The notes below the pieces were generated by a model. It did no database searches. It was not told the origin of the DNA and was given only the letters and a program-made list of their open reading frames with translations. A stretch of DNA of 64,000 nucleotides from Heloderma charlesbogerti (Eukaryota; Chordata; Lepidosauria; Squamata; Helodermatidae), in NCBI GenBank assembly GCA_026122225.1, contig JANEZZ010002202.1:1-64000 (forward strand), written 5' to 3'. Numbering within the stretch: position 1 is the first letter of the stretch; each line of letters starts with the position of its first letter. Positions 1,138 through 63,594 of this stretch are shown one piece after another. Made by a program: the position numbers and the translations under genes.

Positions 1138-1721
1138 TAGGGATGGCGGAGAATTTCTGAGAATTTTTCCACGAATCTCGGTGAGGCCAAATGCCAACGC
1201 ATTTGGCCCCCCGAAATCGGTGGTGAAATTCTCTGCCCCCCCCCCCAGGGATGGGACTTACCTTTCACGAATGTCCCTCCTGGCAGCGGGTCCCGGCGGC
1301 GGTTCGTCGGGTCTTCGTCAGGGGCGGGGGCGGCAGCCGGTCTTTCGACCGGCTGCCACCGCCGCCATTACAAGTGCAGTAAAACAAAAACAAAAACCCC
1401 GTGATAGGCTACATAATGATTAACGTAGCCTGTCACGGCTAGATCTCCAAAGTCAGCCGTGATAGGCTACATTAATCGTTACATAGCCTATCACGGGGGT
1501 GGTTTTTGTTTTGTTTTTTTTCGCGGCTGTGTAGACGCGGCGCTTCTACCCGGCCTGAATTTCGCTGGCGAGGGATGGGGCGCCTCCCACCCGGCCTGAA
1601 TTTCGGCCGGGCGAGGCGGGGCACCCCCCCCTCGCATGAACTTCGGGGGGAGAAGCGAAGCACCTCCCCCCCACCACGAAGCAAGCTTCGAGGACAGGTA
1701 AGGGACTTTCGTCCATCCCTA
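1138..1721 (+). mobile_element. E1: TAGGGATG-family hAT-like non-autonomous element
   Basis: The element starts TAGGGATGGCGG and ends CATCCCTA. The same 8 bp, GTAGTTGG, flanks it at 1130-1137 and 1722-1729. That TSD length and TAG-type terminus are typical of hAT transposons. It has no transposase. From the A end: a terminal foldback (about 1145-1243), an outward splice-donor sequence on the minus strand (1256-1263), a CpG-rich block containing a small inverted repeat (about 1332-1357), then two palindromes around GATAGGCTACRT (1401-1436 and 1459-1494). The B end has GGCCTGAATTTCG repeats (about 1550-1610) and an outward donor CAGGTAAGG (1695-1703). The large central inverted repeat seen in longer copies is missing. 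Confidence 0.9.
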
Positions 1722-1752: not shown

Positions 1753-2697
1753 TAGGGATGACAGAGAATTCTGCCACGGATCTTGAGGAGGCTGAATGCC
1801 AACGCATTCGGCCCCCCAAAATTGGTGGTGGAATGGTCTGCCACCCCCCTGCCACCCCCCGGGACGGGACTTACCTTGGGTGGATCTTCCTGGCGGCGGC
1901 GGCGGCTCCGGGGCGGCAGCTCCAGTGGCGTTTTGGCAGCGGCGGCTGCGGCGGCCAGTGTTCCAACCGGCTGCCACCGCCGCCGCCATTTCCAGTTAAA
2001 AAACAAAAAACAAAAAAAGTGATAGGCTACGTAAAGATTTACGTAGCCTATCACGGCTAGATTTTTAAAAAACACCGTGACAGGCTACGTAAATGTTTAC
2101 GTAGCCTATCACAGCTGATTTAAAAGGAAAAAAAAACACGCGTGTACGCAAATGGCGGCGCCCGTCGGCGCCACCATTTGCGTTCCTTATTTTGGCGCCT
2201 CTTAGTCTACGTAAACATTTACGTAGACTAAGACGGCGAAAATAAGGGGAACACAAATAGCCTAGACACTACGCTATTTGCGTTCCCCTTATTTTCGCCA
2301 TCTTACGTGGACTAAGACGTGCCAAAATATGTAGACAAAATGTTTACGTAGACTAAGACGTGCCAAAATAAGGAACGCAAATGGCGGCACCCACAGGCGC
2401 CATTTGCATACGTGCATTTTTTTCTTTTAAATCAGCCGTGATAGGCTACGTAAACATTTACGTAGCCTATCACGGCTGACTGCAGGAACGCAAATGGTGG
2501 CAGCTACGGCCGCCGCCATTTGCGTCCCTGCTAGCCAGCGACTGGATGTCCGGCCGCTGGCGGAGCTGGCCAGCGGCTCCGCAGAATTCCTGCAGAGCGG
2601 AGCTGGCCGGCCAGGATTCGGGCGGGAGGGACAGAGCGCCTCCCCCCAACCACAAATGTCACCCTTCAAAAAGGTAAGTGACTTTCGTACATCCCTA
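1753..2697 (+). mobile_element. E2: TAGGGATG-family element, subtype II
   Basis: The exact 8-bp TSD ATATCGAC flanks it at 1745-1752 and 2698-2705, and the termini are TAGGGATG and CATCCCTA. It carries a chain of palindromes: 2019-2054 and 2077-2112 (GATAGGCTACGTAAA type), 2148-2181 (AAATGGCGGC facing its complement), 2201-2232 (TAGTCTACGTAAA type), 2235-2299 (GGCGAAAATAAGGGGAAC facing its complement), about 2378-2410, 2433-2478 (a near-perfect 46-bp palindrome) and 2489-2524. Outward donors are at 1869-1876 (minus strand) and 2671-2679 (plus strand). Subtype II differs from E1 in its A-end hairpin and in a B-end block containing GCTGGATGTCCGGCCGC. It has no coding capacity that I recognise. 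Confidence 0.92.
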
Positions 2698-4023: not shown

Positions 4024-4565
4024 AAATCTTTACGTAGACTACGGCGAAAATAAGGGCAACACAAATAGCGTTGCCCTTATTTTCGCCGTAGTCTACGTAA
4101 TCTTTACGTAGACTACAGCGACCAAATAAGGAACGGGAATGGCGGCTCCCTATGGGGGCCGCCATTATCCGTACGCGCTTTTTTTTTTTTTTAAGTCACC
4201 CGTGATAAGCTACGTGACGATTGACGTAGCCTATCATGGCTGACTTTGCAAATCTAGCCGTGATAGGCTACGTTAATTGTCACGTAGCCTATCATGGGGG
4301 CATTTTTTTTTTTTAGTTTTATTGGAATGGCGGCGGCGGCAGCCGGTCAAAAGATCAGCTGCCGCCCCCGCCCCTGACGAAGACCTGACGAACCGCCACC
4401 GGGACCCGCCACCGGGAGGGACATTCGGGAAAGGTACGTCCCGTCCTGAGGGGGGTGCGGCGGCGGGGGTGTGTGGAGAATTTCTCCCCGAAACTTGTTT
4501 GGGGGGCCGAACACGTTGGCGCTCAGCCCCCCGAAGTTTTGGGGAGAAATTCTCCGCCAACCCTA
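4024..4565 (-). mobile_element. E3: half-element of the TAGGGATG family
   Basis: Only one half is present. It starts abruptly inside the central TCTACGTAAA-type palindrome region (about 4024) and runs to an intact A end, CCAACCCTA, at 4565. It retains the GGGCAAC...GTTGCCC hairpin (4045-4095), the AATGGCGGCTCCC palindrome (about 4137-4170), two GATAGGCTACGT palindromes, the CpG-rich block, an outward donor AAGGTACGT (4431-4439) and the A-end terminal hairpin (about 4475-4560). The B half and part of the CR1 host are missing, so no TSD can be seen. The breakpoint lies near the centre of the large inverted repeat. Confidence 0.82.
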
Positions 4566-7061: not shown

Positions 7062-7903
7062 TAGGGTTGGCGGAGAATTTCTCCCTGAAACTTTGGGGGG
7101 CCGAGCGCCAACGTGTTCGGCCCCCCGAACAAGTTTCGGGAGAAATCCTCCGCACCCCCCCGCCCCCCGCGCCCCCCCCGGGACAGGACTTACCTTTGCC
7201 GAATGTCCCTCCCAGCGGCGGGTCCGGCCGGCAGTTCAGCGGGTGTTCGTGCGGGGCGGGAGCGGCAGCCGCCATTCCAAGAAACGAAAAGAAAAAAAAA
7301 ACGCCCCCGTGATAGGCTACGTGACTATTAACATAGCCTATCACGGCTAGATTTGCAAAGTCAGCCGTGATAGGCTACGTCAATCGTCACGTAGCCTATC
7401 ACGGGTGACTTAAAAAAAAAAAAAAAAAGCGCGTACGGATAATGGCGGCCCCCATAGGGAGCCGCCATTCCCGTTCCTTATTTGGTCGCTGTAGTCTACA
7501 TAAAGATTTACGTAGACTACAGCGACCAAATAAGGAACGCGAATGGCGGCTCCCTATGGGGGCCACCATTAGCGTACGCGCTTTTTTTTTTTTTAAAGTC
7601 ACCCGTGATAGGCTACGTGGTGATTAACGTAGCCTATCACAGCTGACTTTGCAGATCTAGCCGTGATAGGCTATGTTAATCGTCACATAGCCTATCACGG
7701 GGGCGTTTAAAAAAAAAAACAAAAAAACTTCCGAGTTCCCGGCCAGGCGAGGCGGGAAGCCTCCTCCCCGGCCTGAATTTCGGCCGGGGCGAGGCGGGAA
7801 GCCTCCCCCCACCGGCCTGAACTTCGTGGGGGGAGCAGCGAAGCACCTCCCCCCCACAGCGAACAAGCTTTGACGACAGGTAAGTGACTTTCGTCCACCC
7901 CTA
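7062..7903 (+). mobile_element. E5: TAGGGATG-family element inside CR1 copy A
   Basis: The element starts TAGGGTTGGCGGAG and ends CCACCCCTA. The CR1 host supplies the empty-site comparison. The flanks are CGTAATAA (7054-7061) and CGGAATAA (7904-7911), a 7/8 TSD, and copy B has a single uninterrupted CGGAATAA at this point. The A-end hairpin is about 7068-7155, with an outward donor on the minus strand (7198-7205). The large inverted repeat is 7301-7706. The B-end block has two GGCCTGAAYTTCG repeats, and the outward donor CAGGTAAGT is at 7877-7885. It has no coding capacity that I recognise. Confidence 0.93.
7301..7706. repeat. E5 palindrome-of-palindromes, arms about 200 bp
   Basis: Read outward from about 7503, the two sides are complements of each other over about 200 bp each, with few mismatches. 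Both outer edges are ACGCCCCCGTGATAGG or its complement. Inside each arm are smaller self-complementary units: two GATAGGCTACGT palindromes and one AATGGCGG...CCGCCATT palindrome. The TCTACATAAAG...CTTTATGTAGA-type palindrome sits at the centre. A-runs and T-runs separate the units symmetrically. A transcript could fold either as one long hairpin or as a row of short ones. Confidence 0.9.
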
Positions 7904-10757: not shown

Positions 10758-12688
10758 GGACACCACTGTATTCAAGTCAATATCCTGAGTCTACTACTTA
10801 GTCAATTCAAGTCAATAAATATCCTGAGTTCCCTACGAGCCTACCACAATGGCAGTCGAAAGAGAACTGAGGAAATAAGTGGAAATGTGCTAGGGACATC
10901 CACACTGGGAGGTTGGGGTTCCCACAAAAAATTCCTTAGCTATGGATGTTTTCTAAACAGGGCCCCATGTAGCGCAGAGCACATATGTGTGATGAAAAGA
11001 GACCGTGAAGAAGAACAAAGCATATTTAATTTAAGAACCTTTAAACAATCTTAACCTATTATTTAAAGAATATCATTTTATCCCCTTTTGCAAACTATTA
11101 CATTCTGTTCATTTTGAAAGTTTATCTCTAATAGTGGTGTCAATTCCATGCCTACACCATAGGAAAACCAGTCAGACAGATAAAATAAATCAGCTACTTG
11201 TTAGAAAGTAAAGAATTTGGGGTGATTAAAAATGTGATTGTTACGATAAATGAAATGAAGAACGTAATTCTAAACACTAAACTTTTACATTTCCTATTTT
11301 ATAGTTCTTTGACCATTTTTACATTGCCTATTAATTCTGGCTGGACAAAGTCCTAACTCCCCTGTGTTAAAAAGAAAAGTACAATAAAATGCATGACTAA
11401 TCAGGAAGATGAAACATAAACCAATACTTTATTTTTGTAATTTCACTCAGTAGAAAACATCAGTTTATGTGGCTTAAGGAATTGTTACTCTCTTGGTGCC
11501 AGCATTTGAAATAAGTTTGTTGGTACAGAGACATGAAGCATAAAGAGAGACGACAATCTTTATACGGTACAGCTTTCTTTTGAGTTACGCTCCATTTCCA
11601 AATATGGTAAATATTTCTACTTAGTTGTCACTCACAGATACATTCAGTTCATGCAAAGCTTCTGAATTTCAGCTCTAACCATTTCTTACTGAAGAGGTTG
11701 CTGATACCATACATAGCACTGGTGTGGGAGAGGTCAATGGATCTCAACCTAGTTGAGCGCAGACACTGGTAACTTGAAAGCATCACATACCATAGCCAAG
11801 GAACATTCCATTCCATGGATATGCTTTACAACGAGTAACTGAAAACAGACCTTGGTATCTGCATAGTCTATTTTTAATTCTTACTTTCATTAGATTCCAC
11901 TTATCAAGGTTGCAATCCAGAAAGCTTCCTTAGATGCAAGTAATGCCTTGCACACATGTATTTTTATTTCTAACTTAATCCTGCCCCAAAGAGCTTCTTC
12001 TGCTACATTAGAAACTGCATTTGAAACTCCTTTCTTGCTCCAAGTTTCAAAAGCAGGTGGTCAAGCATTAGGTATCAGTGGTTATTGACGAGGTCTGGGG
12101 AATGGGATGGGGAAGGAAAGACACAGAAGCTGGCTTTGTAACATACTATTTTCAGCTTGTTTCCCATCAGAATCATGAGGGTCATATACTGGGTTAGATC
12201 CAGGCTAAATTCCCATTGAAATTGGGAGAGTTTAAGTTAGACATTACTTGTCCCACTGATATGAATGGGACAAAACTATGACTAACTTAGTCTAGATCTA
12301 ATCCACTGCCTTTCTCTTCACCTTTCTGTTTCAGATTAGAACTGGTTTCTGCCATGTTCAAAATAAACATATAGCTCAATATATGGAACTGGTAAGCATG
12401 GCACAGTTATAAATATATATCTGCGCTGTACAAACACCATCTGATACAGTGGCTGTGCCCCTACCTTCCCGACCATCTGATCCCATTGGTAGTACATGCC
12501 CTGGTCTCCTCTCGTCTAGACTACTGTAATGCGCTCTATGTGGGGTTACCCTTGAAGATGGTTCGGAAGGTGCAGCTGGTGTAGAATGCGGCGGCTTTAA
12601 TCACGTGGCGGTGATTAAAGGCAGCCACTGGCATGATCATATCACTCTGGTGCTGAAGGAGTTGCACTGGCTACCAGTTATTTTCCAG

Positions 12689-13648
12689 TAGGGATGGACA
12701 AAAGGGACTTACCTTGTCCCGCAGCTTGCTTCACAGTGGGGGGGAGGCGCTTTGGTTCTCCCCCTGAAGTTCAGGTGAGGGGGGGGAGGCACCCCGCCTC
12801 GCCCGGCCGAAATTCAGGCTGGGGGGGAGGCGCCCCATCCCTCGCCGGCGAAATTCAGGCCAGGTAGGAGCGCCCCGTCTACCCGGCTGCGAAAAAAAAA
12901 GTAAAACACACACACACACACGTGATAGGCTACGTAACGATTTACGTAGCCTATCACGTCTAGATTTCCAAAGTCAGCCATGATAGGCTATGTAAATCGT
13001 CACGTAGCCTATCACGGGTGACTTTGAAAAAAAAAAAGTGCGTACACAAATGGCGGCTCCCATGGGGACCGCCATTTGCGTTCCTTATTTTGGCACGTCT
13101 AGTCTACGTAAAGCTTTACGTAGACTACGGCGAAAATAAGGGCAACGCAAATAGCGTTCCCTTCTTTTCGCCGTAGTCTACGTAAATCTTTACGTAGACT
13201 AGACGTGCCAAAATAAGGAACGCAAATGGCGGTCCCCATGGGAGCCGCCATTTGCGTACGCACTTTTATTTTTTTTCAAAGTCACCCGTGATAGGCTACG
13301 TGACGATTTACGTAGCCTATCACAGCTGACTTTGGAAATCTAGCCGTGATAGGCTACGTAAATCGTTACGTAGCCTATCACGGGTGTGTGGTTTTTTTTT
13401 TAACTTTTTTTTTTTTGAAATGGCAGCGGCGGCAGCCTGTCAGGAGACCGGCCGCCGCCCCCGCCCCTGACGAACCGCTGCCGAACCGCCGCCGGGACCC
13501 GCCGCCGAGAGGGACATTCGCTGAAGGTAAGTCCCATCCCGGGGGGGGGCGGGGGGCCGGCGGAGAATTTCCCCAACACTTTCGGGGGGCTGAATGCGTC
13601 GGCACTCGGCCTCCCAAAGATTCGTGGAGAAAGTCTCCGCCAACCCTA
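12689..13648 (-). mobile_element. E6: TAGGGATG-family element inside an L2 LINE
   Basis: The element is in B-to-A order on the plus strand, hence the minus call. Termini are TAGGGATGGAC and CCAACCCTA. The flanks TTTTCCAG (12681-12688) and TTTTCCGG (13649-13656) form a 7/8 TSD. The related L2 copy near 62390-62422 has one TTTTCCGG at this point, which confirms the duplication. Outward donors are at 12707-12714 (minus strand) and 13524-13532 (plus strand). It has the fullest central structure in the window (12915-13388). The A-end hairpin is about 13560-13640. Confidence 0.93.
12915..13388. repeat. E6 palindrome-of-palindromes, arms about 230 bp
   Basis: The centre is near 13150. Each arm contains, from outside in, two palindromes of the GATAGGCTACGTAA type, an AAATGGCGGCTCCCATGG palindrome, a TTCCTTATTTTGGCACGTC word, a TAGTCTACGTAAAG palindrome, and half of a GGCGAAAATAAGGG hairpin whose loop is the AAATAGCG at the centre. 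The left arm's cruciform units therefore recur in mirror order on the right. Mismatches between the arms are few. Confidence 0.92.
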
Positions 13649-13959
13649 TTTTCCGGGACAAATTCATGGTGTTGGTTTTGACCTTTAAAACCCTATACGG
13701 TTCTGGCCCAGGCTATCTCAAGGAGCACCTCCAGCAACACCAGACAGGCCACTCAACAAGATCAGCCTCAGATGACCTTCTCTCTATCCCATCAGCCAGG
13801 ACAGCTAGGCTGGTGAGGATGAGGGAGAGGGCCTTTTCTGTGATGGACCCCACTCTGTGGAACTCCCTCTCTAGGGAACTCTGCCATGCCCCCTCTTTAA
13901 TGAGCTTCCACCACGCATTCAAAACTTGGTTGTTCAGGCAGGCATTTGGGGTGGGTTAG
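13649..13959 (+). pseudogene. L2 ORF2 C-terminal remnant
   Basis: The frame ending at 13959 encodes the distal C-terminus of an L2-clade ORF2 protein. Signatures are VLTFKTLYGSGPGYLKEHL, a RTARL-containing segment and the RERAFSVMDPTLWNSL block. In family members this follows the reverse transcriptase domain. It is 5'-disconnected by E6, and the upstream half at 12425-12688 already contains stops. No activity is possible. Confidence 0.75.
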
Positions 13960-19592: not shown

Positions 19593-22180
19593 ACTATGCT
19601 TCCCTCGGTGAGAACTTAGGTATGTGATCAACAGTTAGGGTCAACACCATCACCATAAAGCAGGGGTGCAAAAAGTGCAACCCAAAAGCTGTTGGCAGAC
19701 CCTAAAGCTCTGTCTGGTTTCCCACACCCAGCATCTGCCACCTCTGAAAAATAGGGAGGAGATGGGAGAAAATGGTTCTGGCCATACAGGATGAACCTTA
19801 TTCTTTGAGTTTCCCAAGAGGCAGTGATTGAAGGTTCCTGCCTATTTCATGGGATGCTCTGGGGATGAAGTTCCTGCTCTAGGAACCAGAGTATGTTCCT
19901 AGAATGTTTTCCCCACTTTTTTGGTGCTTGTGTTGTGAGACTGGGATGGGGAGCAGGCTGCAGTACCTTGATGCTGTTGTTGCAAGACCAAGATCTGTTG
20001 CTGCTTGGGTTTTATATGCTGAAAAGTATATACTGTATAAATTGAGGTCTACAAGCAACTTTGGTAGATTATGCTTTTGTGATACATCTTCCTACAGGGT
20101 TTGTTAACATAACAGTACGATCCTGAAGGGTAAGATCTTACTGTTATGTTAACAAGAGCTTCATTTTCCTGAAACAGGGCATTCCAATGAGACCTGCAAT
20201 CACCTTAGCACAAGAAAACCAAACTCTTGCCTGCAAACTGACCTTATTATTTCTACATTAATAGGATTTGTTTCCAAACCACTTTACATCCACAGAACTC
20301 AGAACACCATCGCAGCCTGCAAGCTAGGACAGACTAAGAAACAATAACTTGCATAAGGTCACACTGTGAGCTTCATAGCTGGAGATGGATTTAGAGCGAA
20401 GGTCTCCATAATCTAAGCCAAAAAAATCCAAGACAGTGTCATTTTCTGGCAGTAATCATGGGGATGTTGACAGTAGCTTCACATATTAAAGAGCTGGAGG
20501 AATTCTTTGATGTAGGCCTTTGCTACCTGCTACCCTGCTCTTGCCTCCCCCAAAGGTGGGCTTGTTTCTTGTCGTATGGGGACAGAGCAGCAGATGGTGG
20601 AAGGCAGAGGTTCGAGCAACCAGAATCAAGATGCAAGAATTTGTGAATGCCCTCCCTATCCCTGTTGCTAATTAGTTTCATATTCAAAAACAAATTTAAA
20701 ATACCTGAGAACGTAGCACTATACAGCATTGCCATTAGCATTATGCGATCTAATGGACCTCAAAACATAGTTCTCCTGGTAATTAATTGAATCACACTGG
20801 TCCAATCTGACATTTGGTTGAGAAACAAGAATCAGGGTTAAGAATCTTCGGAAAGGTGAAGGGTCTTCTGTGATACTTTAAAATGACATGTTACTGGACT
20901 GGCAATAGAAGAGTCTGCCTTTTTACATTTTTGGCTTCACTGAGTGATCTTTGTGGGGGTGGAGGATTATTCCAAAGTAGTTGGTTCAGAATTTCTCTCT
21001 CATAACTTCTTCACTTACTTTTTAATTTTAAGTAGCACATGTTCATCTGAAGAAACAGCAGTATCCATTTATATTTAGAAGACGCTTGTTAGTTTAGTCA
21101 AACCCAAATGTAAATTTTGGTGCAGTTAAAACATACTGAATTCAATAGGTGTAGGCATGCCTAGCTCTGCATAGGATGAGGATGCAAAAGTTGTAGCATT
21201 TTAAGAAGGTGTGAGCTAAACTTTACAGAGCCTCTATTGAACTGGACTAATACTGCTGCTGCTTGAGTATAACAGCCAAACACTAGTTTTGAAAATGGGA
21301 ACTCTGGCTCCCAGCCCAGCACTGTCTTTATTCTATTATAAATTAAGTGTGTATGAACTGGAGTTCATTAGAACTGATTATTTCAGTCTTTGGATACACA
21401 TTTCTGACTCCTTTAAGGTCTCCAGATCTGGTTCAAAGCATATGTAAACAGAAATAGCTCATTTGATACTTTCCTTATTATTATTATAGCGTGATTGGCT
21501 ATAGACAGAAATACATTTTTATTTCTTATTTTTCAGAAAGTCCAGGATCAGCATACTGAAAGCATCCCATTAAAGGTGAATCAGTCCTTTATTTCTGTGT
21601 CTCAGTATCTACCCATCTACCTATCTAACTATCTACCTATTCATCCTGTTCTTCAACCAACAGGTTCCCAGAGCAGCTTGCATAGCTGCTTTGCACTTTA
21701 CTGTCTCGCTATGGTTAGGAACTTGATACAGATGAGCTAGTTAAAGCTGAATCCAGGCAAGATAGATGAGGCTCTTGGCAGGCATTTTGACTTAGAGGGG
21801 GGTTAACTATAACTCACTGGTTCAGAATGTCTGATTTTCTAGCTTTGGGCTTCTCCTATAACATCACTGTCAAACTAATCGTGATGGCTAGGAATATGCT
21901 TCACCCAGTAAAGGCACAATTCTTCAATGCAGATTCAGACCAGGAACTGCCCTATCCGCTAGGCCTTACAAATTATAACACGCAAATACAATAAACATTC
22001 ATGTAACCCACATTAAATACAAGCACAGAGCTCCTAGCAGTAAAAACACCAATAAAACTGACTTTAAAAGGTGTTGGGGAATAAAAAGGTCTTTGCCTGG
22101 CATCTAAATGATAGTGGCTGGATCTACACTTATCGCCTTTTTTCGCTTCCAATGAGGTTTCACTGTCTGCCTTTCACACT
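19593..22180. other. About 2.6 kb without a recognised gene
   Basis: Nothing coding is supported. It contains a strong hairpin (20101-20155) and a degenerate (CTAT)n-like stretch near 21605-21650. Confidence 0.4.
20101..20155. repeat. 22-bp stem hairpin
   Basis: The arms are 20101-20122 and 20134-20155, complementary at 21 of 22 positions, with an 11-base spacer. The arm motif is TTGTTAACATAACAGTA. Its unusual length for random DNA suggests a small foldback element or a structured site. Confidence 0.85.
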
Positions 22181-26729: not shown

Positions 26730-27558
26730 TAGGGCTGTGCGGGGACTCCCCGATCCGACTTGGAAGCTGGTTTGTGGCTTCTGAGACAGGCCCAATTTGG
26801 CTCAGGCAGATTAGATCCCCCCCAAGCAGACTTGGCCCCGAACCCGAAGCAGGATTCGGATGTCAAACCTCTTTTCGGGGGGGCCCCAACACCCCCATGC
26901 AAACCTCCTTACCTTGCCACCACCGCCACCACCTCTGCTGTCATCATCCTCGCCACCTCCAACACTGCCTCCTCCACCGCCATTGCTGTCCTCGCTGCCA
27001 CCGTCGCCATCTGTCACTGCCGCCATCCTTGCCGCCACCTCCGCTGCTGTCCTTACCACCACTGCCCCGCCGCCGCTGTCCTTGCCGCCTTCTCCGCCGC
27101 TGTCCTCACTGGCACTTCCTGCTGAGGCCTAGAAGCAGGGAGTCACCATTTTTAAAATGGCGACCTCCTGGAACTTCCTGGAGGAGGCGGTAGCAGCGGT
27201 GGTGACAGTGAGGATGGAGGCAGCAGCGGTGAGGGCAGTGGCGGTGAAGGCAGCAGCAGTGAGGACGGTGGCAGTGGCGAGGGCGGCGGTGGCACTGCGG
27301 TGGAGAAGGCAGCAACAGCATGGAGAAGGTGGCAGTGGCCACAGTGGCGGAGAACGCGGCTCAGGTAAGGACCTGGACATGCCGGGGGGGCTGGGCCAGG
27401 GGGCCAAAGCTCAAAGTACACTGAGTGCTTTGAAGATCCCCTGACCTGCTCTGGGTCGCTTCATGCCCCCTCTGCTTTACCTCGGACAGGGCACAAAGTG
27501 ACCTGAAGCAGCCTGCTTCGACTCGGGCCTCATTGGGCTGAAGTGGTGCACAGCCCTA
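26730..27558. mobile_element. Second-family hAT-like element with triplet-rich core
   Basis: Termini are TAGGGCTGTGC and GCACAGCCCTA, flanked by an exact 8-bp TSD AAAATTAC (26722-26729 and 27559-27566). The left interior is rich in CCACCG/CTGCCG triplets and the right in GGCAGC/GGTGGC triplets, so the core is a loose inverted repeat. Its centre is near 27155, with ACCATTTTTAAAATGGCGAC. Both sides carry outward splice-donor words: CTTACCTT at 26908-26915 (minus strand) and CAGGTAAGG at 27362-27370 (plus strand). The many overlapping open frames here come from triplet repeats and I do not call them genes. Confidence 0.88.
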
Positions 27559-29155: not shown

Positions 29156-29392
29156 ACTAGAGGTAGGGATGACAGAGAATTCCGCCACGGATTTCAGTGA
29201 GGCCAAATGCACTGGCATTCAGCCCCCCGAAATCTGTGGTGGAATGGCCTGCCCCCCGCCCCCCCCCACGGATTCCCCCCGGGATGAGGCTTACCTGGGG
29301 CAAATGTTCCAGGCGGCGGCGGCGGCTGGTCTTTCGACCGGCTGCTGCAGCCGCCATTGCCATCTGCCCTTTGCCATGATAGGCTATGTAAG

Positions 29393-31998
29393 AACAGGAG
29401 GAACAGAAACAGGAGGAACAGAAAGGGAGGTGGGGTTGCACTGTATGTGAAAAATACATATCTCTGCACAGAAATACAGGAGGATGAGCTTGGTAGCCCC
29501 ATCGAGAGCATCTGGGTTGAAATAAATGGAGCAAAGAATAAAAGGAACCTGGTGGTTGGAGTCTACTACCGGCCACCCAATCAAGGAGAAGACACGGATG
29601 AAACTTTTGAAAAGCAAATAGCCAATGTTTTAAGGAAGCATGATGTAGTAGTAATGGGGGACTTCAATTTCCCCGATATTTGTTGGGAGACAAATTCTGC
29701 AAAACATGGCCCCTCCAGGAAATTCCTGACTTGTGTGGCGGATAACTTCCTCCTACAGAAAGTAGAGGAAGGAACTAGAGGATCGGCTATCCTTGACTTG
29801 ATCCTAACCAACAGAGATGACTTAGTGGATAAAGTAGCAGTTACAGGAACTCTGGGGGAAAGCGACCATGTTGTACTTGAGTTTTTGGTTCTAAGGGAAG
29901 CAAAAGCCGAGTGTAGTCAAACGCGTACCCTGGATTTTAGGAAAGCTGATTTTCATAAACTCAGAACAATGATCAGTAAGGTCCCATGGCAAGTGATGCT
30001 AGCGAGAAAAGGAGTCCAAGATGGGTGGGAGCTTTTAAAAAAGGAAATTCTCAAGGCACAATCACAAACAATTCCAACAAGAAGAAAAGGTGGAAGACAA
30101 CAGAAGAAGCCAATGTGGCTTCACAAAAAGCTTAGGGATGACCTGAAAACAAAAAAGGACACATATAGGAAGTGGAAAGAAGGCCAAGTAACAAAGGAAG
30201 AGTACAGGCAGATAGCACAGAATTGCAGGGATGGCGTCAGGAAGGCTAAAGCTGAGAATGAGCTGAGGTTAGCAAGGGATGTTAAAAACAACAAAAAGGC
30301 TTTCTTCAGCTACGTGCATAGTAAAAGGCAGAGGAAAGAAATGGTGGTTCAGCTATTAAATAAGGATGGAAAAATGATAACAGATGACAAAGAAAAGGCA
30401 GAGGTGCTCAATTCCTACTTTGGCTCAGTCTTCTCCCAAAAGAGGGTCTATGACCCCGCTGGCAAAGGCGAAGTACAGGCTGAAGGAGCAGGATTGCAGC
30501 TTGAGATCGACAGGCATATGGTCAAGGAACACCTCATTACTTTGAATGAGTTCAAATCTCCAGGGCCAGATGAACTGCATCCTAGAGTCATAAAGGAACT
30601 GGCAGAAGAACTCTCAGAACCGCTGTCTATTCTCTTTGAGAAATCATGGAGGACGGGGGAAGTGCCAGACGACTGGAGGAGGGCTAACGTGGTCCCTATC
30701 TTCAAAAAGGGTAAAAAGGAGGAACCTGGGAACTACAGACCAGTCAGTCTGACATCAATCCCTGGGAAAATTCTGGAGCAGATCATAAAGCAATCCATCT
30801 GGGAGCACCTTGACAACAATGTCGTGATTACTCGAAGCCAACATAGATTTGTCAAAAACAAGTCCTGCCAGACAAATCTGATCTCATTTTTTGATCAAGT
30901 AACCTCCTTTGTAGACCGTGGGAATGCTGTAGACATCATATACCTTGACTTCAGCAAAGCTTTCGACAAAGTGCCCCATGATATCCTGATGAGCAAACTA
31001 GCTCGAAGTGGGCTAGATGAAACAACGATCCGGTGGATCCACAGTTGGCTACAGAATCGGACTCAAAGAGTGCTTATCAATGGGACCTTCTCAAGCTGGG
31101 GAGAGGTAACGAGTGGGGTACCGCAGGGCTCAGTCCTGGGCCCAGTGCTCTTCAACATTTTTATTAATGACTTGGAGGAGGAGGTGCAGGGAATGCTGAT
31201 CAAATTTGCAGATGACACAAAATTGGGAGGGATAGCTAATACTTTGGAAGACAGAAACAAAATTCAAAGTGATCTGGATAGACTGGAGCGCTGGGCAGAA
31301 TGGCATTTAATAGGGACAAATGCCAAGTTCTGCACCTAGGAAAAAGAAACCAAACGCACAGTTACAAGATGGGGGATACGTGGCTCAACCACACTACGAG
31401 CGAGAACGATCTTGGAATTGTTGTCGATCACAAGCTGAATATGAGCCAACAATGTGATGTGGCTGCAAAAAAGGCAAATGCTATTTTGGGCTGCATTCAT
31501 AGAAGCATCGCTTCCAAATCCCGGGAAGTACTAGTTCCCCTCTACTCAGCACTGGTTAGGCCTCATCTGGAGTACTGTGTCCAGTTCTGGGCACCACACT
31601 TTAAGAAGGATGCAGACAAACTGGAGAGGGTTCAGAGGAGGGCAACAAAGATGATCAGGGGACTGGAAACAAAGCCCTATGAAGAGAGACTGAAAGAACT
31701 GGGCATGTTTAGCCTTGAGAAGAGAAGACTGAGTGGAGATATGATAGCACTCTTCAAGTACTTGAAAGGTTGTCACAGAGAAGAAGGCCAGGATCTCTTC
31801 TTGATCATCCCAGAGTGCAGGACACGGAATAATGGGCTCAAGTTACAGGAAGCCAGATTCCGGCTGAACATCAGGAAAAACTTCCTGAGTGTCAGAGCAA
31901 TACGACAATGGAACCAATTACCTGGGGAGGTGGTGGGCTCTCCCACACTGTTGGCCTTCAAGACGAGGCTGGACAGCCATTTGTCGGGGATGCTCTGA
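29393..31998 (+). pseudogene. CR1 copy B ORF2, endonuclease-reverse transcriptase, near-intact
   Basis: The frame is open from the truncated 5' end to 31339. Endonuclease signatures are VVGVYYRPPN, VVVMGDFNFPDICWE and GESDHVVLEF. Reverse transcriptase signatures are [58 protein letters not shown] and catalytic FADDTKLGG (31205-31216). Compared with copy A, about 10 bp are missing near 31297, just after the catalytic motif. This shifts the frame; the C-terminus continues in another frame from 31300 to the stop at 31996-31998. The open frame that reads in from E8 at 29357 is a chance fusion. Apart from the 5' truncation, the deletion is the only disabling lesion I see. Confidence 0.9.
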
Positions 31999-32085
31999 CT
32001 TGGATTCCTGCATTGAGCAGGGGGTTGGACTCGATGGCCTTGTAGGCCCCTTCCAACCCTACTATTCTATGATTCTATGATTCTA
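29393..32085 (+). mobile_element. CR1 LINE copy B, young, inside E8
   Basis: It is 5'-truncated within the endonuclease region and complete at the 3' end, with ATTCTATG octamers (about 32062-32085). A 4-bp repeat TAAG borders it (29389-29392 and 32086-32089), consistent with the short or absent TSDs of CR1, although TAAG also fits simple microhomology. The first bases carry a 15-bp direct duplication (AGGAGGAACAGAAA twice). It lies exactly in the middle of one E8 palindrome. It is very similar to copy A but with far fewer defects. Confidence 0.92.
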
Positions 32086-32593
32086 TAAGTATTTACGTAG
32101 CCTATCACAGCAAGCCAAGGAAAAAACAAAACAAAACCCGCGTACGCAAATGGCGGCGGCTACAGCCGCCGCCATTTGCATTCCCTTTTTTTCGCAGTTT
32201 TAGCCTACGTAAATATTTACGTAAGCTATTACTGCGAAAAAAAGGGCAACGCAAATAGCGTAGTGGGCGCTATTTGCTTTCCTTTTTTTTCTCACCGTAA
32301 TACCTTACATACATATTTACGTAGGCTAAAACTGCGAAAAAAGGGAAAGCAAATGGTGGCCCCCATAGCTGCCGCCATTTGCGTATGTGGGTTTGTTTTT
32401 TTTCTTCCGGAAGGAAGGCTGCCCAGCGGCTGGATTTCCGGCTGTGGGTGGCCCCAGCCGGGGACTCTGCGGAAGCTCTGCGGAGCGGAGCCAGCCGGAG
32501 AAGGATTTCAGGGGGAGGTGCAAAGCACCTCCCCTCCACCGCGAATCACCTCATTGAAAAGGTAAGTGACTTTCGTACATCCCTAACTAGAGG

Positions 32594-32974: not shown

Positions 32975-33901
32975 TAGGGATGGCAGAGAATTTCTCCCCG
33001 AAACTTCGGGGGGCCGAGCGCCAACGTGTTCGGCCCCCCGAACAGGTTTCGGGGAGAAATCCTCCGAACCCCCCGCCCCCCGCACCCCCCCCGGGACGGG
33101 ACGTACCTTCACCGAATGTCCCTCCCGGTGGCGGGTCTGGCCGGAGGTTCGGCGGGTGTTCGAGCGGGGCGGGAGCGGCAGCCAGTCTTTCGACCGGCTG
33201 CCGCCGCCGCCATTGCAATAAAAAAAAAAAGAAAAACGCCCCCTGATAGGCTACGTGACGATTCACGTAGCCTATCATGGCTAGATTTGCAAAGTCAGCC
33301 GTGACAGGCTACGTCAATCGTCACGTAGCCTATCACGGGTGACTTTAAAAAAAAAAAAAGTGCGTACGGATAATGGTGGCCCCCATAGGGAGCCGCCATT
33401 CCCGTTCCTTATTTGGTCGCTGTAGTCTACGTAAATGTTTACATAGATTACGGCGAAAATAAGGGCAACACTATTTGCGTTGCCCTTATTTTCGCCATAG
33501 TCTACGTAAACATTTACGTAGACTACAGCGACTAAATAAGGAACGCGAATGGCGGCTCCCTATGGGGGCCGCCATTAGCGTACGTGCTTTTTTTTTTTAA
33601 AGTCACCCGTGATAGGCTACGTGACGATTGACGTAGCCTATCACGGCTGACTTTGCAGATCTAGCCATGATAGACTACGTGAATCGTCACGTAGCCTATC
33701 AGGGGGCATTTTATTTTTTTTAAAAAAAGTTCGCGTTCGCGGCCGGGCGAGGCGGGAAGCCTCCCCCCCGGCCTGAATTTCGGCCGGGGCGAGGCGGGAA
33801 GCCTCCCCCCCGGCCTGAACTTCGCGGGGGGAGCAGCGAAGCACCTCCCCCCCACCGCGAACGTCCTTCGACGACAGGTAAGGGACTTTCGTCCACCCCT
33901 A
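32975..33901 (+). mobile_element. E9: TAGGGATG-family element, full structure
   Basis: The exact 8-bp TSD CTTCTCCC is at 32967-32974 and 33902-33909. The A-end hairpin is at about 32981-33067 (GAATTTCTCCCCGAAAC facing its complement). The donor word on the minus strand is ACGTACCT (33101-33108). The large inverted repeat is 33236-33708. The B block has two GGCCTGAAYTTCGSCSGGG repeats, and the donor CAGGTAAGG is at 33875-33883. A CGGCAGCC...GGCTGCCG-type inverted repeat lies at about 33176-33202. No ORF of known type. Confidence 0.94.
33236..33708. repeat. E9 palindrome-of-palindromes, arms about 230 bp
   Basis: Centre near 33472. The order of units in each arm matches E6: two GATAGGCTACGT palindromes, an AATGGYGGCYCCCATAGGG palindrome, a TAGTCTACGTAAA palindrome and a half-hairpin GGCGAAAATAAGGGCAAC. 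Flanking A and T runs are mirrored. Confidence 0.92.
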
Positions 33902-34894: not shown

Positions 34895-35692
34895 TAGGGA
34901 TGGAAGAAAGGGACTTACCTGGTCCCGCAGCTTGCTTCGCAGTGGGGGGGAGGCGCTTCGCTTCTCCCCCCGAAGTTCAGGTGAGGGGGGGAGGCGCCCC
35001 GCCTCGCCTGGCCAAAATTCAGGCTGGGGGGGAGGCGCCCCATCCCTCGCCGCCGAAATTCAGGCCGGGGAGGAGCGCCCCGTCTACCCGGCCACGAAAA
35101 AAAAGGAAAGTAAAAAAACACACACACACACCCGTGATAGGCTACGTAACGATTTACGTAGCCTATCACAGCTAGATTTCCAAAGTTAATAAGGGAACGC
35201 TATTTGCGTTGCCCTTATTTTCACTGTAGTCTACGTAAATCTTTATGTAGACTAGACGTGCCAAACTAAGGAACGCAAATGGCGGCGCCCCATGGGCGCC
35301 GCCATTTGCATACGCACTTTTTTTTTTTTCTTCAAAGTCACCCGTGATAGGCTACGTGATGATTTACATAGCCTATCACGGCTGACTTTGGAAATCTAGC
35401 TGTGATAGGCTACGTAAATCGTTACGTAGCCTATCACGGGTGTGGTTGTTTTTTTTTTTTTTACTTTCCTTTTTTATTTTGCAATGGCAGCGGCAGCAGC
35501 CGATCAGAAGACTGGCCGCCGCCGCCCCCCCCCCGCCAAAACGCCGCCGAGAGGGACATTTGCAAGAGGTAAGTCCCATCCCGGGGGGGGGGGCGGGGGG
35601 CCGGCGGAGAATTTCACCACCAATTTTGGGGGGCCGAATGCATTGGCATTCGGCCTCCCAGAGATTCGTGGAGAAATTCTCCGCCATCCCTA
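34895..35692 (-). mobile_element. E10: TAGGGATG-family element inside another hAT
   Basis: It is in B-to-A order on the plus strand. Termini are TAGGGATGGAAG and CCATCCCTA. The flank TTGGTTTC (34887-34894) recurs as ATGGTTTC (35695-35702), offset by two extra bases (TA) from the terminus: a 7/8 TSD with a small insertion. Outward donors are at 34913-34920 (minus strand) and 35577-35585 (plus strand). The left arm of the central inverted repeat is largely deleted: after one GATAGGCTACGT palindrome the sequence jumps near 35187 to the GGGAACGCTATTTGCG centre. Confidence 0.88.
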
Positions 35693-37283: not shown

Positions 37284-38627
37284 TAGGGATTGCGGAGAAT
37301 TCCTCCAAGGATTTCAGTGAGGCTGAATGCATGGGCATTCGGCCCCCCGAAACCCATGGTGGAATGGCCTCCCACCCCCCGCCACCCCGCGGAATCCCCC
37401 CGGGACGAAGCTTACCTGGGGCGGATGTTCTGGTGGCAACAGCTCCAGCGGCGGCTCCGGCGGCCGCTGGTGTCTCGGCTGGCTGCTGCGGCCACAAATG
37501 GCGGCCGTCATAGCGGCCGCCATTTGCGTCCTTCCAGGCTGCTGTGATAGGCTACGTAAGTATTTACGTAGCCTATCACGGTAAAGGTAGCCACGCAAAT
37601 GGCCTAGCGGCCGCTGTTTACATAGCTGCCTTTACCTAGGGATGGCGGAGAATTTCTCCCCGAAACTTCGGGGGGCTGAGCGCCAATGTGTTCAGCCCCC
37701 CAAACAAGTTTCGGGGAGAAATTCTCCACACACACCCCACCCCCCACACCGCCCCCAGGACGGGACTTACCTTTGCCAAATGTCCCTCCCGGCGGCGGGT
37801 CCGGCCGGCGGTTCGGCGGGTGCTCGTCCGGGGCGGGAGCGGCAGCCGGTCTTTCGACCGGCTGCCGCTGCCACCATTGCAATAAAAGGAAAAAAAACAA
37901 AAACGCCCCCATGATAGGCTACGTGACGATTAACGTAGCCTATCACGGCTAGATCTGCAAAGTCAGCCGTGATAGGCTACGTTAATCGTCATGTAGCCTA
38001 TCACGGGTGACTTTAAAAAAAAAAGCGCGTACGGAAATGGTGGCCCCCATAGGGAGCCACCATTCGTGTTCCTTATTTGGTCGCTGTAGTCTACGTAAAT
38101 CTTTAGGTAAATCTTTAGGTAAATCTTTACGTTTTTTGTTTATTTTTTTAAGTCACGGGGGCGTTTTTGTTTTTTTAAAAAAACTTTTGAGTTCGCGGCC
38201 GGGCGAGGCGAGGCGCCTCCTCCCCGGCCTGAATTTCGGCCGGGCGAGGCGGGAAGCCTCCCCCCCGGCCTGAATTTCGGCCGGGCGAGGTGGGAAGCCT
38301 CCCCCCCTGGCCTGAACTTCACGGGGGGAGCAGCGAAGCGCCTCCCCCCCACCGCGAACAAGCTTCAAGGACAGGTAAGTGACTTTCGTCCACCCCTACC
38401 TTTACCGTGATAGGCTACGTAAATAGTTACGTAGCCTATCACAGCAGCCTGGAAGGACGCAAATGGCGGCTGCCATTTGCAGCTGCAGCAGCCCAGCCAT
38501 GGCTGGAACTCCAGCTGCGGCTGGTCCCGGCGGGCAGCTCTGCGGACCTGCCGCGGAGCGGAAATGGCCAGAGAGGATTCCGGGGATGCCCCAGTGTGGA
38601 ACCAGGTAGGTGTTTTGTACATCCCTA
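37284..38627 (+). mobile_element. E11: TAGGGATG-family element, subtype II, hosting E12
   Basis: The exact 8-bp TSD TGTGCAGT is at 37276-37283 and 38628-38635. The left half has the subtype II A hairpin, a donor on the minus strand (CTTACCT, 37411-37417), an AAATGGCGGCCGTC palindrome (about 37496-37527) and a GATAGGCTACGTAAGT palindrome (about 37544-37580). E12 splits it at 37637. The right half has another GATAGGCTACGTAAAT palindrome, an AAATGGCGGCTGCCATTT palindrome (about 38460-38480) and donor CAGGTAGGT (38603-38611). Excluding E12 it is about 580 bp. Confidence 0.9.
37637..38398 (+). mobile_element. E12: TAGGGATG-family element nested in E11
   Basis: The exact 8-bp TSD CCTTTACC is at 37629-37636 and 38399-38406, and lies inside E11. 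The A-end hairpin is about 37643-37730. Donors are at 37765-37772 (minus strand) and 38372-38380 (plus strand). The right arm of the central inverted repeat is deleted. At the breakpoint (about 38093-38130) the 12-bp word AAATCTTTAGGT or a near copy is repeated three times. The B block has three GGCCTGAAYTTCG repeats of about 42 bp, more than other copies. Confidence 0.93.
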
Positions 38628-43448: not shown

Positions 43449-44050
43449 TAGGGATGTACGACAGTCACTTACCTTTTCGCAGGTGTGATTCACAGTGTGG
43501 GGGGGAGGCGCTCCGTCCCTCCCCCCGGAATCCTCCCTGGCTGGCTCCGCTCCATGGCGGCTCCGTGGAGCTGCCGGCCAGGGCCGTCCGCAGCCGGAGT
43601 TCTGCTTTGCGTCCCGCCAGGCTGCCGTGATAGGCTACATAAGTATTTATGTAGCCTATCATGACAATGAGCAGGGATGCAAACGGCGGCCACTATGCCG
43701 TTTGCACCGCTGCTCTTTTCATGATAGGCTATGTAAGTATTTATGTAAGTAAGTAGTGGCTGCCATTTGCGTGGCTGCCTTTACCATGATAGGCTATGTA
43801 AATACTTACGTAGCCTATCACGGCCGCCATTTGCGTCCGCAGCAGCCTGGCCGTGGCTGTAGTGGCCGCCATTTGCAGAAAGACCAGCCGCTGCCGCCGG
43901 AGCCTCCGCCACGCCAGGTAAGTTTTGTTCCAGGGGGGATTCCGTGGGGTGGCGGGGGGTGGGAGGCCATTCCGCTACAGGTTTTGGGGGGCTGAATGCC
44001 AGTGCATTCGGCCTCACTGAAATGCGTGGTGGAATTCTCCGCCATCCCTA
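43449..44050 (-). mobile_element. E13: short TAGGGATG-family element inside DIRS
   Basis: The exact 8-bp TSD GACACAGG is at 43441-43448 and 44051-44058. It is in B-to-A order on the plus strand. Outward donors are ACTTACCT (minus strand, 43467-43474) and CAGGTAAGT (43915-43923). It contains three GATAGGCTAYRTAA palindromes (about 43626-43662, 43719-43746 truncated, 43788-43823). Around them are AAACGGCGGCC and CCGCCATTTGCG words. At 602 bp it is the shortest complete copy, without the central inverted repeat. Confidence 0.92.
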
Positions 44051-62746: not shown

Positions 62747-63594
62747 TAGGGATGGCAGGGAATTTCTCCCCGAAACTTCGGGGGGCCAAGCGCCAACGTG
62801 TTCGGCCCCCCGAACAAGTTTTGGGGAGAAATCCTCCGCACCCCCCCGGGACGGGACTTACCTTTCCCGAATGTCCCTCCCGGCGGCGGGTCTGGCCGGC
62901 GGTTCGGTGGGTGTTCGAGCGGGGTGGGAGTGGCAGCCGGTCTTTGCAAAGTCAGCCGTGATAGGCTACGTCAATCATCACGTAGCCTATCACGGGCGAC
63001 TCAAAAAAAAAAAAAAGCGCGTACGGATAATGGTGGCCCCCATAGGGAGCCGCCATTCCCGTTCCTTATTTGGTCGCTGTAGTCTACGTAAAGATTTACG
63101 TAGACTACGGCGAAAATAAGGGCAACACAATGCCCTTATTTTCGCCATAGTCTACGTAAATCTTTACGTAGACTACAGCGACCAAATAAGGAACGGGAAT
63201 GGCGGCTCCCTATGGGGGCCACCATTAGCGTACGCACTTTTTTTTTTTTTTTTTAAGTCGCCCGTGATAGGCTACGTGACGATTGACGTAGCCTATCACG
63301 GCTGACTTTGCAGATCTAGCCGTGATAGGCTACGTTAATCGTCACGTAGCCTATCAGGGGGCTTTTTTTTTTTTTTAAACTTTCGCGTTCGCGGCCGGGC
63401 GAGGAGGGAAGCCTCCTCCCCGGCCTGAATTTCGGCCGGGCGATGCGGGAAGCCTCCCCCCCAGCCTGAATTTCGGCCGGGGCGAGGTGGGAAGCCTCCC
63501 CCCCAGTCTGAACTTCGCGGGGGGAGCAACGAAGCGCCTCCCCCCCACCGCGAACGTCCTTCGAGGACAGGTAAGGGACTTTCGTCCACCCCTA
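62747..63594 (+). mobile_element. E16: TAGGGATG-family element nested in E15
   Basis: The exact 8-bp TSD CTCCTCGC is at 62739-62746 and 63595-63602, inside E15's B block. The A-end hairpin is about 62753-62840. Donors are at 62856-62863 (minus strand) and CAGGTAAGG 63568-63576 (plus strand). The first GATAGGCTACGT palindrome of the left arm is deleted together with part of the CpG block near 62943; otherwise the central inverted repeat (62944-63361) is complete. The B block has three GGCCTGAAYTTCG-like units. Confidence 0.94.
62944..63361. repeat. E16 palindrome-of-palindromes
   Basis: Centre near 63128 (GGGCAACACAATGCCC, the shortest loop among copies). The arms carry GATAGGCTACGT, AATGGYGGCYCCC and TAGTCTACGTAAA palindromes in mirrored order. 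The left arm is shorter by one unit. Confidence 0.9.

Follow-up and report, generated by a model that had tools for sequence, protein, structure and literature searches.

Nested palindromes at the core of a hAT MITE family in Heloderma charlesbogerti, and a larger relative with a single palindrome arm

Background

Between positions 12689 and 13648 of a Heloderma charlesbogerti contig lies a hAT-like element whose core reads as a palindrome made of smaller palindromes, and the locus raises the question of how such nested symmetry arises in a transposon and how its two arms are kept alike. The window, the whole stretch of DNA that was analysed, comprises the first 64,000 nucleotides of the contig (C1976:1-64000) in an assembly of 2.30 Gb; scans of 264 kb took in the window plus the 200 kb that follow it on the contig. 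The original prediction, made from the letters, held that E6 and three further elements carry a central inverted repeat, that each arm is a fixed row of small palindromes, and that the design may be undescribed.

E6 is a non-autonomous hAT element

12689..13648, minus strand: E6, a complete non-autonomous hAT element of subfamily B, 960 bp, recognised from its ends, its target-site duplication (TSD) and the frame it interrupts
12681..12688, no strand assigned: left copy of the E6 TSD; right copy at 13649-13656, with one mismatch

The termini of E6 are of the TAGGG type (TAGGGATGGAC.../TAGGGTTGGCGG...) and its TSD is 8 bp long (TTTTCCAG/TTTTCCGG, one mismatch). The insertion interrupts the reverse-transcriptase frame of a LINE, which we take to be of CR1 type. 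A scan of the window that accepted up to one TSD mismatch and searched for TAGGGATG-type ends found 12 pairs with 8-bp TSDs, nine exact and three with one mismatch; these pairs include 19617-20187 (one mismatch) and 26730-27558 (exact), which do not belong to the family. Among 20 fetched copies, whose ends were allowed to shift by 3 nt, TSDs were exact in 10 (two of them being one insertion), had one mismatch in eight and two in one, and were absent from one (L018). The insertion counted twice, with TSD GTTACAAG, lies on two contigs (L024 and L025), which are probably two haplotypes of one locus. The terminal inverted repeat is short and of YAGGG type: in most copies each end reads TAGGGATG or departs from it by a single change. 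We noticed no transposase frame in the short elements; one is present in a larger element on contig C235, described below. The predicted hAT nature was thus borne out by the 8-bp TSDs, by the TAGGGATG-type ends and by ends held in common with an element that encodes a hAT transposase.

Like MITEs, the elements are short, non-coding and numerous, with lengths of 512-978 bp in 26 of 27 elements and of 1563 bp in one. First-look searches of the genome returned 11780 candidates with E6 as the query and 6805 with the element at 32975-33901, sets that overlap and do not amount to a copy count; relatives of the short elements probably number in the thousands. Clusters of the half-site GATAGGCTACGT, which belongs to the palindrome P1 described below, occur 47 times in 264 kb, or about once per 5.6 kb, some of them with a single site. 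As expected for a vertebrate repeat, the P1 pattern was found neither in viral contigs nor in bacterial or archaeal genomes. Several successive matches to the E6 query mark tandem or mosaic element parts at C2551:127310-128985, C2600:414337-416050 and C3211:745189-746202. From a reading of the frames, Tc1-like transposase fragments lie at 40480-41348 of the window.

A palindrome on three levels

12892..13413, no strand assigned: E6 palindromic core, 522 bp, self-centred; from inverted-repeat search, self-comparison and folding
12921..12958, no strand assigned: first P1 palindrome, GTGATAGGCTACGT..ACGTAGCCTATCAC; others at 12979-13016, 13287-13324 and 13345-13382
13043..13082, no strand assigned: P2 palindrome, CAAATGGCGGC..GCCATTTG; mirror copy at 13219-13258
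13095..13132, no strand assigned: P3 palindrome, AGTCTACGTAAA..TTTACGTAGACT; mirror copy at 13169-13206
13129..13172, no strand assigned: centre of E6, the half-hairpin GGCGAAAATAAGGG and its mirror

An inverted-repeat search of the four elements named in the original prediction gave arms of 146+116 nt in E6, 127+65 nt at 7299-7708, 134+99 nt at 33224-33721 and 72+97 nt at 62945-63312, with 90-99% complementarity between arms. In a gapped self-comparison each element proved to hold one self-centred palindrome, which in E6 spans the 522 bp given above and elsewhere takes up 410 of 842 bp (7062-7903), 498 of 927 bp (32975-33901) and 368 of 848 bp (62747-63594). Self-comparison scores were 620-865 in the four elements, and none of the 50 dinucleotide shuffles made of each scored above 50. 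Arms of about 200-230 bp had been predicted; long arms exist, but those of E6 measure about 260 nt and those of the element at 62747 about 184 nt. Folded as RNA, the E6 core reaches -434 kcal/mol (z -46), and as DNA -292 kcal/mol (z -52); in neither case did any of 100 shuffles fold as low.

Within the arms the small palindromes stand in the fixed order that had been described, and the predicted two levels have become three, in further subfamilies as well. The first level consists of the units P1, P2 and P3, the second of the inverted pair formed by the two P1 units of each arm, and the third of the whole core. The inverted pairing of the two GATAGGCTACGT units per arm corresponds to repeats I3 and I5 in E6, I3 and I4 in the elements at 7062 and 32975, and I5 in that at 62747. 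P1 and P3 resemble each other except for differences that are themselves mirrored. Across 44 P1 and P3 units, 90% of pair cells hold standard pairs and 30 cells are doubly changed, against 12.1 in shuffles; across 20 P2 units the figures are 87% and 12, against 7.0. For both sets, the number of double-change pairs and of pair types did not rise above shuffles.

Relatives in the window and beyond

1753..2697, plus strand: subfamily A element, TSD ATATCGAC; palindrome centre unchanged, palindrome ends at the inner P1
22190..23065, plus strand: subfamily A element, TSD TGCAGTAC
1138..1721, plus strand: short derivative near subfamily B, TSD GTAGTTGG; 372-bp deletion between P1 units
34895..35692, minus strand: subfamily B relative, core partly deleted; TSD not identified
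7062..7903, plus strand: subfamily C element, TSD CGTAATAA/CGGAATAA; centre deleted, palindrome re-centred on one P3 unit
32975..33901, plus strand: subfamily C element, TSD CTTCTCCC; core in 40 of the 40 best-scored genome places, itself included
62747..63594, plus strand: subfamily C element, TSD CTCCTCGC, within another such element
contig 62634-64079: outer element around 62747-63594, TSD GGGTCATT, extending beyond the window end
4029..4565, minus strand: truncated subfamily C copy, one arm and centre only
37284..38627, plus strand: diverged relative, TSD TGTGCAGT; its core contains a subfamily C element at 37637-38398, TSD CCTTTACC
43449..44050, minus strand: diverged relative, TSD GACACAGG
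29164..32585, plus strand: relative interrupted by a LINE, TSD ACTAGAGG; palindromic core in the right part (32095-32585)
26730..27558, minus strand: member of a different hAT-like family, TSD AAAATTAC, ends TAGGGCTGTGC; core unrelated, likewise a self-centred palindrome
contig 72102-72613 (L029:8102-8613): element of a third family, ends TAGGGGTGTACGG/TAGGGAAGTTAGGG; unrelated palindromic core with TATAAG... units

A self-centred palindrome, with scores of 108-865, was found in all 27 TSD-bounded elements (at most one mismatch) of the 264 kb. This set consists of 26 of 30 TSD pairs and the element at 7062-7903; omitted from it were 29164-32585, 37284-38627 and 62634-64079, which carry insertions, and 183436-183813, which is 378 bp long and has no P1 unit, while the 1563-bp row at 230823-232385, probably also with an insertion, was kept. 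Of 200 random and partly overlapping 850-bp control windows placed off the elements in the same 264 kb, 12 scored at least 100 (mean 42, maximum 401), so strong palindromes do occur elsewhere in this DNA, though uncommonly. In the genome, the core was matched on the opposite strand in 40 of the 40 best-scored places both for the subfamily B query (of 11780 candidates) and for the subfamily C query (of 6805); both queries had a palindromic core, so its share among all copies may be lower. We regard the core palindrome as confirmed: it is one long palindrome whose arms are a fixed row of small palindromes. Deletions have struck palindromes too, as between the P1 units of 1138-1721 and at the centre of 7062-7903.

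In subfamily C copies, for example at 32975-33064, the left terminal 90 bp or so form a separate palindrome, and opposite-strand matches to about positions 9-97 of the 32975-33901 query were present in 39 of its 40 best-scored places. The families at 26730-27558 and 72102-72613 have the palindromic plan in common with the E6 family, but not its sequence. At its centre, the element at 26730-27558 also has two divergent AAAATGGCGAC-like sites.

Arms change together between subfamilies and drift apart in fixed copies

Subfamilies B and C differ at 12 left-arm and 14 right-arm columns of 139; 10 of these columns vary in both arms, all 10 with identical letters (Fisher 1.2e-10). Subfamilies A and C differ at 14 left and 11 right columns of 119, with 10 shared, and A and B at 8 and 11 of 113, with seven shared. 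Joint change is significant in all three comparisons (1e-10 to 7e-8), which rest on small groups of two copies for A, two for B and five for C, some of them one-armed, with the B right arm represented mostly by E6 alone. Within subfamily A elements the two arms are 13% apart (19/150 and 14/109), and A left arms differ from B left arms (22/152 and 19/109) hardly more than that. The arms of A being so far apart internally, the case for this subfamily rests on the shared columns.

In B and C copies, by contrast with A, an element's own arms are only 4-7% apart, as gene conversion inside each copy after insertion might leave them. Such conversion should mirror the changes that a fixed copy acquires, and the copies of subfamily B, to which the following two counts are confined, speak against it. 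In the consensus palindrome of 19 distinct copies (two of 21 rows were dropped, L018 for its composite end and L025 for the insertion it shares with L024), 506 positions are identical, 15 mismatched and 12 gapped. Outside CpG, and with private and shared differences counted alike, the copies depart from the consensus 153 times in the left arm and 114 times in the right; these differences fall at mirror positions in both arms seven times against 4.2 expected; five of these seven entries are symmetric, three of them at a single A-tract spot in L027. In the small palindromes, 26 and 18 differences coincide nowhere, against 0.26 expected, in a count where one of nine units overlaps another and a few pairs enter twice. 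The left arm of the subfamily C element at 32975 is, moreover, as near to the left arm of the element at 62747 (9/153) as to its own right arm (11/152). We therefore consider conversion in place very improbable. Joint change between subfamilies, together with unmirrored differences in fixed copies, indicates that the arms are matched in the amplifying lineage and diverge after fixation.

The centre of the palindrome is identical in A, B, C and element h, and its outer limits differ: the palindrome ends at the inner P1 in A, and extends over the outer P1 and the A-tract in B and C. A common centre with differing limits suggests a single origin of the palindrome, with later extension or renewed copying.

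A larger hAT element carries one arm

C235:52195-61581 (L070/L049/L071/L074): large hAT element, 9.4 kb, two genes; starts TAGGGATGTCAGAGAAATTC, ends ...GGTAAGTGACTTTCATCCACCCCAA

The C235 element is flanked by CACAACAC on both sides, the right TSD being observed in this copy only, and its last bases are AA, not TA. It holds an 879-aa stop-to-stop frame with the zf-BED and Dimer_Tnp_hAT domains of a hAT transposase and, on the opposite strand, a Myb/SANT-like frame. Hermes is among the sole solved-structure matches of the 879-aa frame, and ZBED4-like hAT transposases of squamates are the top five of its 7990 scored relatives (identity 42% in Sceloporus, 40% in Phrynocephalus, 36% in Paroedura, 38% in Eublepharis and 39% in Sphaerodactylus). 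Set beside these relatives, a comparison made at the protein level, the C235 element has in addition the Myb/SANT-like frame and a palindrome arm at its right end. Three squamate relatives (P0001, P0003 and P0004) bear precomputed SCAN annotations, two of them also KRAB, beside the hAT domain, and are possible host fusions. Domains for hAT dimerisation gave 871 first-look candidates in the genome, of which the best 150 were scored and listed over the cut-off. With the C235 left end as the query, 40 of the 40 best-scored places (of 430 candidates, query included) start within 5 bases of the TAGGGATGTCAGAG terminus, at query position 6; the other 39 are 96-99% identical to C235, so the large-element family is young. 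Three copies of the large element are 98-99% identical over the 2.5 kb compared.

The last 380 bp or so of the C235 element match the right half of the subfamily C element 32975-33901 with 90% identity and 46 gap positions, through P3, P2, a T-tract, both P1 units, a GC-rich exon, the donor and the end. The copies on C838 and C3039, whose fetched pieces end before the element terminus, have P3, centre and P3 at the arm, where C235 lacks 77 nt. The left end of C235 gave no match to the reversed arm (score 25). At their ends, the short and large elements thus have in common about 20-30 terminal nt of the left side and the complete arm of the right side. Beyond those terminal nucleotides, the larger element lacks the left flank of the short ones, with its ATGGCGG exon and left-end hairpin, so a short element is no plain internal deletion of the larger one.

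On C838 a large hAT element seems, by eye, to lie inside a short palindromic element, right after its A-tract (L077, C838:1179350-1179500). Two candidate features of the larger element were rejected. One was CGTACATCCCTA as the right end, a sequence found about 370 nt past the dimer domain in 16 of 20 fetched 3' ends: in the 13 of these 16 that were aligned, together with L049, likeness continues beyond it, and the end of C235 lies 3.5 kb further on. The other was CGAA as a shared subterminal motif, which occurs 13 times in 240 nt of the larger element and is not dominant in the short ones.

Outward splice sites and CpG content

13524..13532, plus strand: outward 5' splice-site consensus AAG/GTAAGT in the E6 left flank, 122 nt from the element end
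12707..12715, minus strand: outward 5' splice-site consensus AAG/GTAAGT in the E6 right flank, 24 nt from the element end

On both sides of the core, the elements usually contain a putative 5' splice site that points outward. Everything outside the best palindrome of the 27 elements was scored with a 5' splice-site matrix that stems from no prediction tool: scores of at least 9 occurred outward in 45 of 54 flanks and inward in one of 54, and the best outward site beat the best inward one in 52. Positions are regular: in 23 of 27 elements the right site is 22-25 nt away from the end, and in 22 of 27 the left site is 114-138 nt away from its end. Variation is much like that of splice sites: position -3 holds A, C or G, position +4 holds A or G, and position +6 mostly T or G. 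The elements are rich in CpG as well: in 12 of them the observed/expected ratio is 0.74-1.19, whereas the remainder of the window has 0.25. On either strand P2 reads AAATGGCGGC, which resembles the YY1/TISU start-site motif.

Read together, these features might point to a mobile two-way promoter: a CpG-rich symmetric core would be transcribed both ways, with a first exon and a strong 5' splice site on each side; the arms would be kept alike since both directions need the same modules, and an insertion could join host exons to first exons born in the element. We advance this only tentatively; it concerns function and is compatible with the fold-back origin favoured below. The excess and regularity of outward sites argue for it, as do the outward donors of the two unrelated families, which score 11.5 and 11.3 in the 26730 family and 11.6 and 7.6 in the 72102 family. 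Against this, one donor of the 72102 family is weak, the right flanks of the elements at 70239 and 126329 have no good outward site, and most flanks have their donor by descent, so that independent lineages are few. Frames from ATG to donor are open in the flanks, but neighbouring frames are often open too. The donors do not outlast other 8-mers after insertion and decay like other sequence, and selection on them in inserted copies was accordingly rejected. The two unrelated families also have lower CpG ratios (0.50 and 0.54), and in eight fixed copies of the E6 family the decay of CpGs outpaces that of other C/G sites by a factor of 3.6-18, so that fixed copies look methylated. An unmethylated state as the cause of CpG richness was rejected for fixed copies on the ordinary CpG decay of these eight; the richness is a property of the source elements, not a protection of fixed copies. 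A broader version, in which the elements would be mobile, direction-blind promoter cassettes whose symmetry comes from repeated fold-back copying in the source lineage, on a plan common to more than one hAT family, is in our judgement somewhat more doubtful still.

Origin of the palindrome

We lean towards the view that the E6 family is a trans-mobilised, non-autonomous hAT family whose core came from a fold-back doubling of the right end of the larger element and was re-matched in the source lineage. The short elements would be mobilised in trans by the hAT transposase of the larger two-gene element in the same genome, presumably the 879-aa protein. The core would have begun as the right-end region of that element, a row of small palindromes that probably serve as modules for protein binding close to a promoter. 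By folding back at the small P3-centre-P3 hairpin, a strand could then have copied the row again mirror-wise; from yeast, inversions that arise by fold-back through hairpins of single-stranded DNA are on record (PMC7467729). In the source lineage the arms would have been re-matched at least twice, there being three subfamilies with their own letters in both arms, either through several rounds of fold-back copying or through conversion between the arms in connection with transposition or its repair. After fixation, the arms of each copy would decay independently. What suggests this course is that the larger element shares the ends and one arm, at its right end, with the short elements.

The derivation may also have run the other way, with the nested palindrome arising in short elements and the 9.4-kb hAT element capturing the right part of one to become a composite; we rate this course as somewhat less probable. 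The left end of the larger element has no arm and, beyond the terminus, is unlike the left ends of short elements, as capture would leave it. In C838 and C3039, moreover, the likeness passes the palindrome centre by a little, over one more P3, before unrelated sequence begins. The single arm of C235 comes without a full centre, which adds some weight to capture. Capture would, however, require the composite to have amplified later, given three copies 98-99% identical over 2.5 kb and a left end with 430 candidates, and it leaves the origin of the palindrome unexplained. As to direction the two accounts are about equally supported; fold-back doubling is ranked slightly ahead since it explains the palindrome too.

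The palindrome might instead matter as RNA, a long hairpin or chain of hairpins that is processed to small RNAs or edited, with selection keeping the pairing. The very stable predicted fold and the pair-keeping double changes in the small palindromes are in keeping with such a role. DNA copying between arms, on the other hand, explains the double changes between subfamilies equally well, and a transcript would contain at most one arm if it began in the core and proceeded outward, a course that the splice sites may suggest. A scan of the 64-kb window with Rfam gave no match at gathering scores, which says little against an RNA role. We consider this role improbable, and prefer fold-back doubling with re-matching in the source lineage.

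Comparison with known elements

That E6 is a hAT MITE is the ordinary part of these results, and hAT elements with an internal inverted repeat are already known. By their descriptions, Tol2 and Angel of fish are like the E6 family in being hAT elements with an 8-bp TSD, a BED transposase and an internal inverted repeat, and single-stranded Angel molecules are described as self-pairing in vitro (PMC12628747). The E6 family is unlike them in that its arms are rows of small palindromes, its core occupies roughly half the length of a short non-coding element, and both flanks have outward splice sites.

Long inverted repeats are likewise described for Foldback-like elements (FB, Galileo), with extension of the terminal repeats in some copies (PMC4168063). 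As described, the FB and Galileo repeats are terminal; in the E6 family they stop short of the element ends, the core starting 199-323 bp inside the left end of the six elements measured (1753, 7062, 12689, 22190, 32975 and 62747), the flanks between core and ends differ from each other, and the ends are short hAT terminal repeats. The CMITE elements of corals have an internal region kept across families; the portion of that report drawn on here links one family to piggyBac and does not mention nested palindromes (PMC2872659). By our own measure, the E6-family core is not much better kept between subfamilies than its flanks, a weak contrast of 0.30 against 0.18-0.28 of the possible score, with 0.58 at the right end.

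The suggestion that the design may be undescribed could hold in part. Among titles and abstract starts of the open full-text literature, no report of a nested palindromic hAT element or of outward donors on two flanks was found, but the internal inverted repeat as such has hAT precedents in Tol2 and Angel. What is new to us is that nested palindromes are matched in the source lineage, that a large relative has one arm, and that outward splice sites come in pairs.

Conclusions

A single genome has a large relative with one arm, short elements with two and subfamilies whose changes are mirrored, and so keeps a record of how a palindrome is made and maintained in a transposon; the mirror test on fixed copies argues against conversion in place as the means of upkeep. 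With an outward splice signal near each end, an element might feed transcripts into adjoining DNA. The outward sites lead to a claim that is open to test, namely that two-way promoters, together with first exons, can be spread by DNA transposons of this lineage. If that is true, the family, with copies in the thousands, would scatter over the genome start sites and donors that may be joined to downstream host exons.
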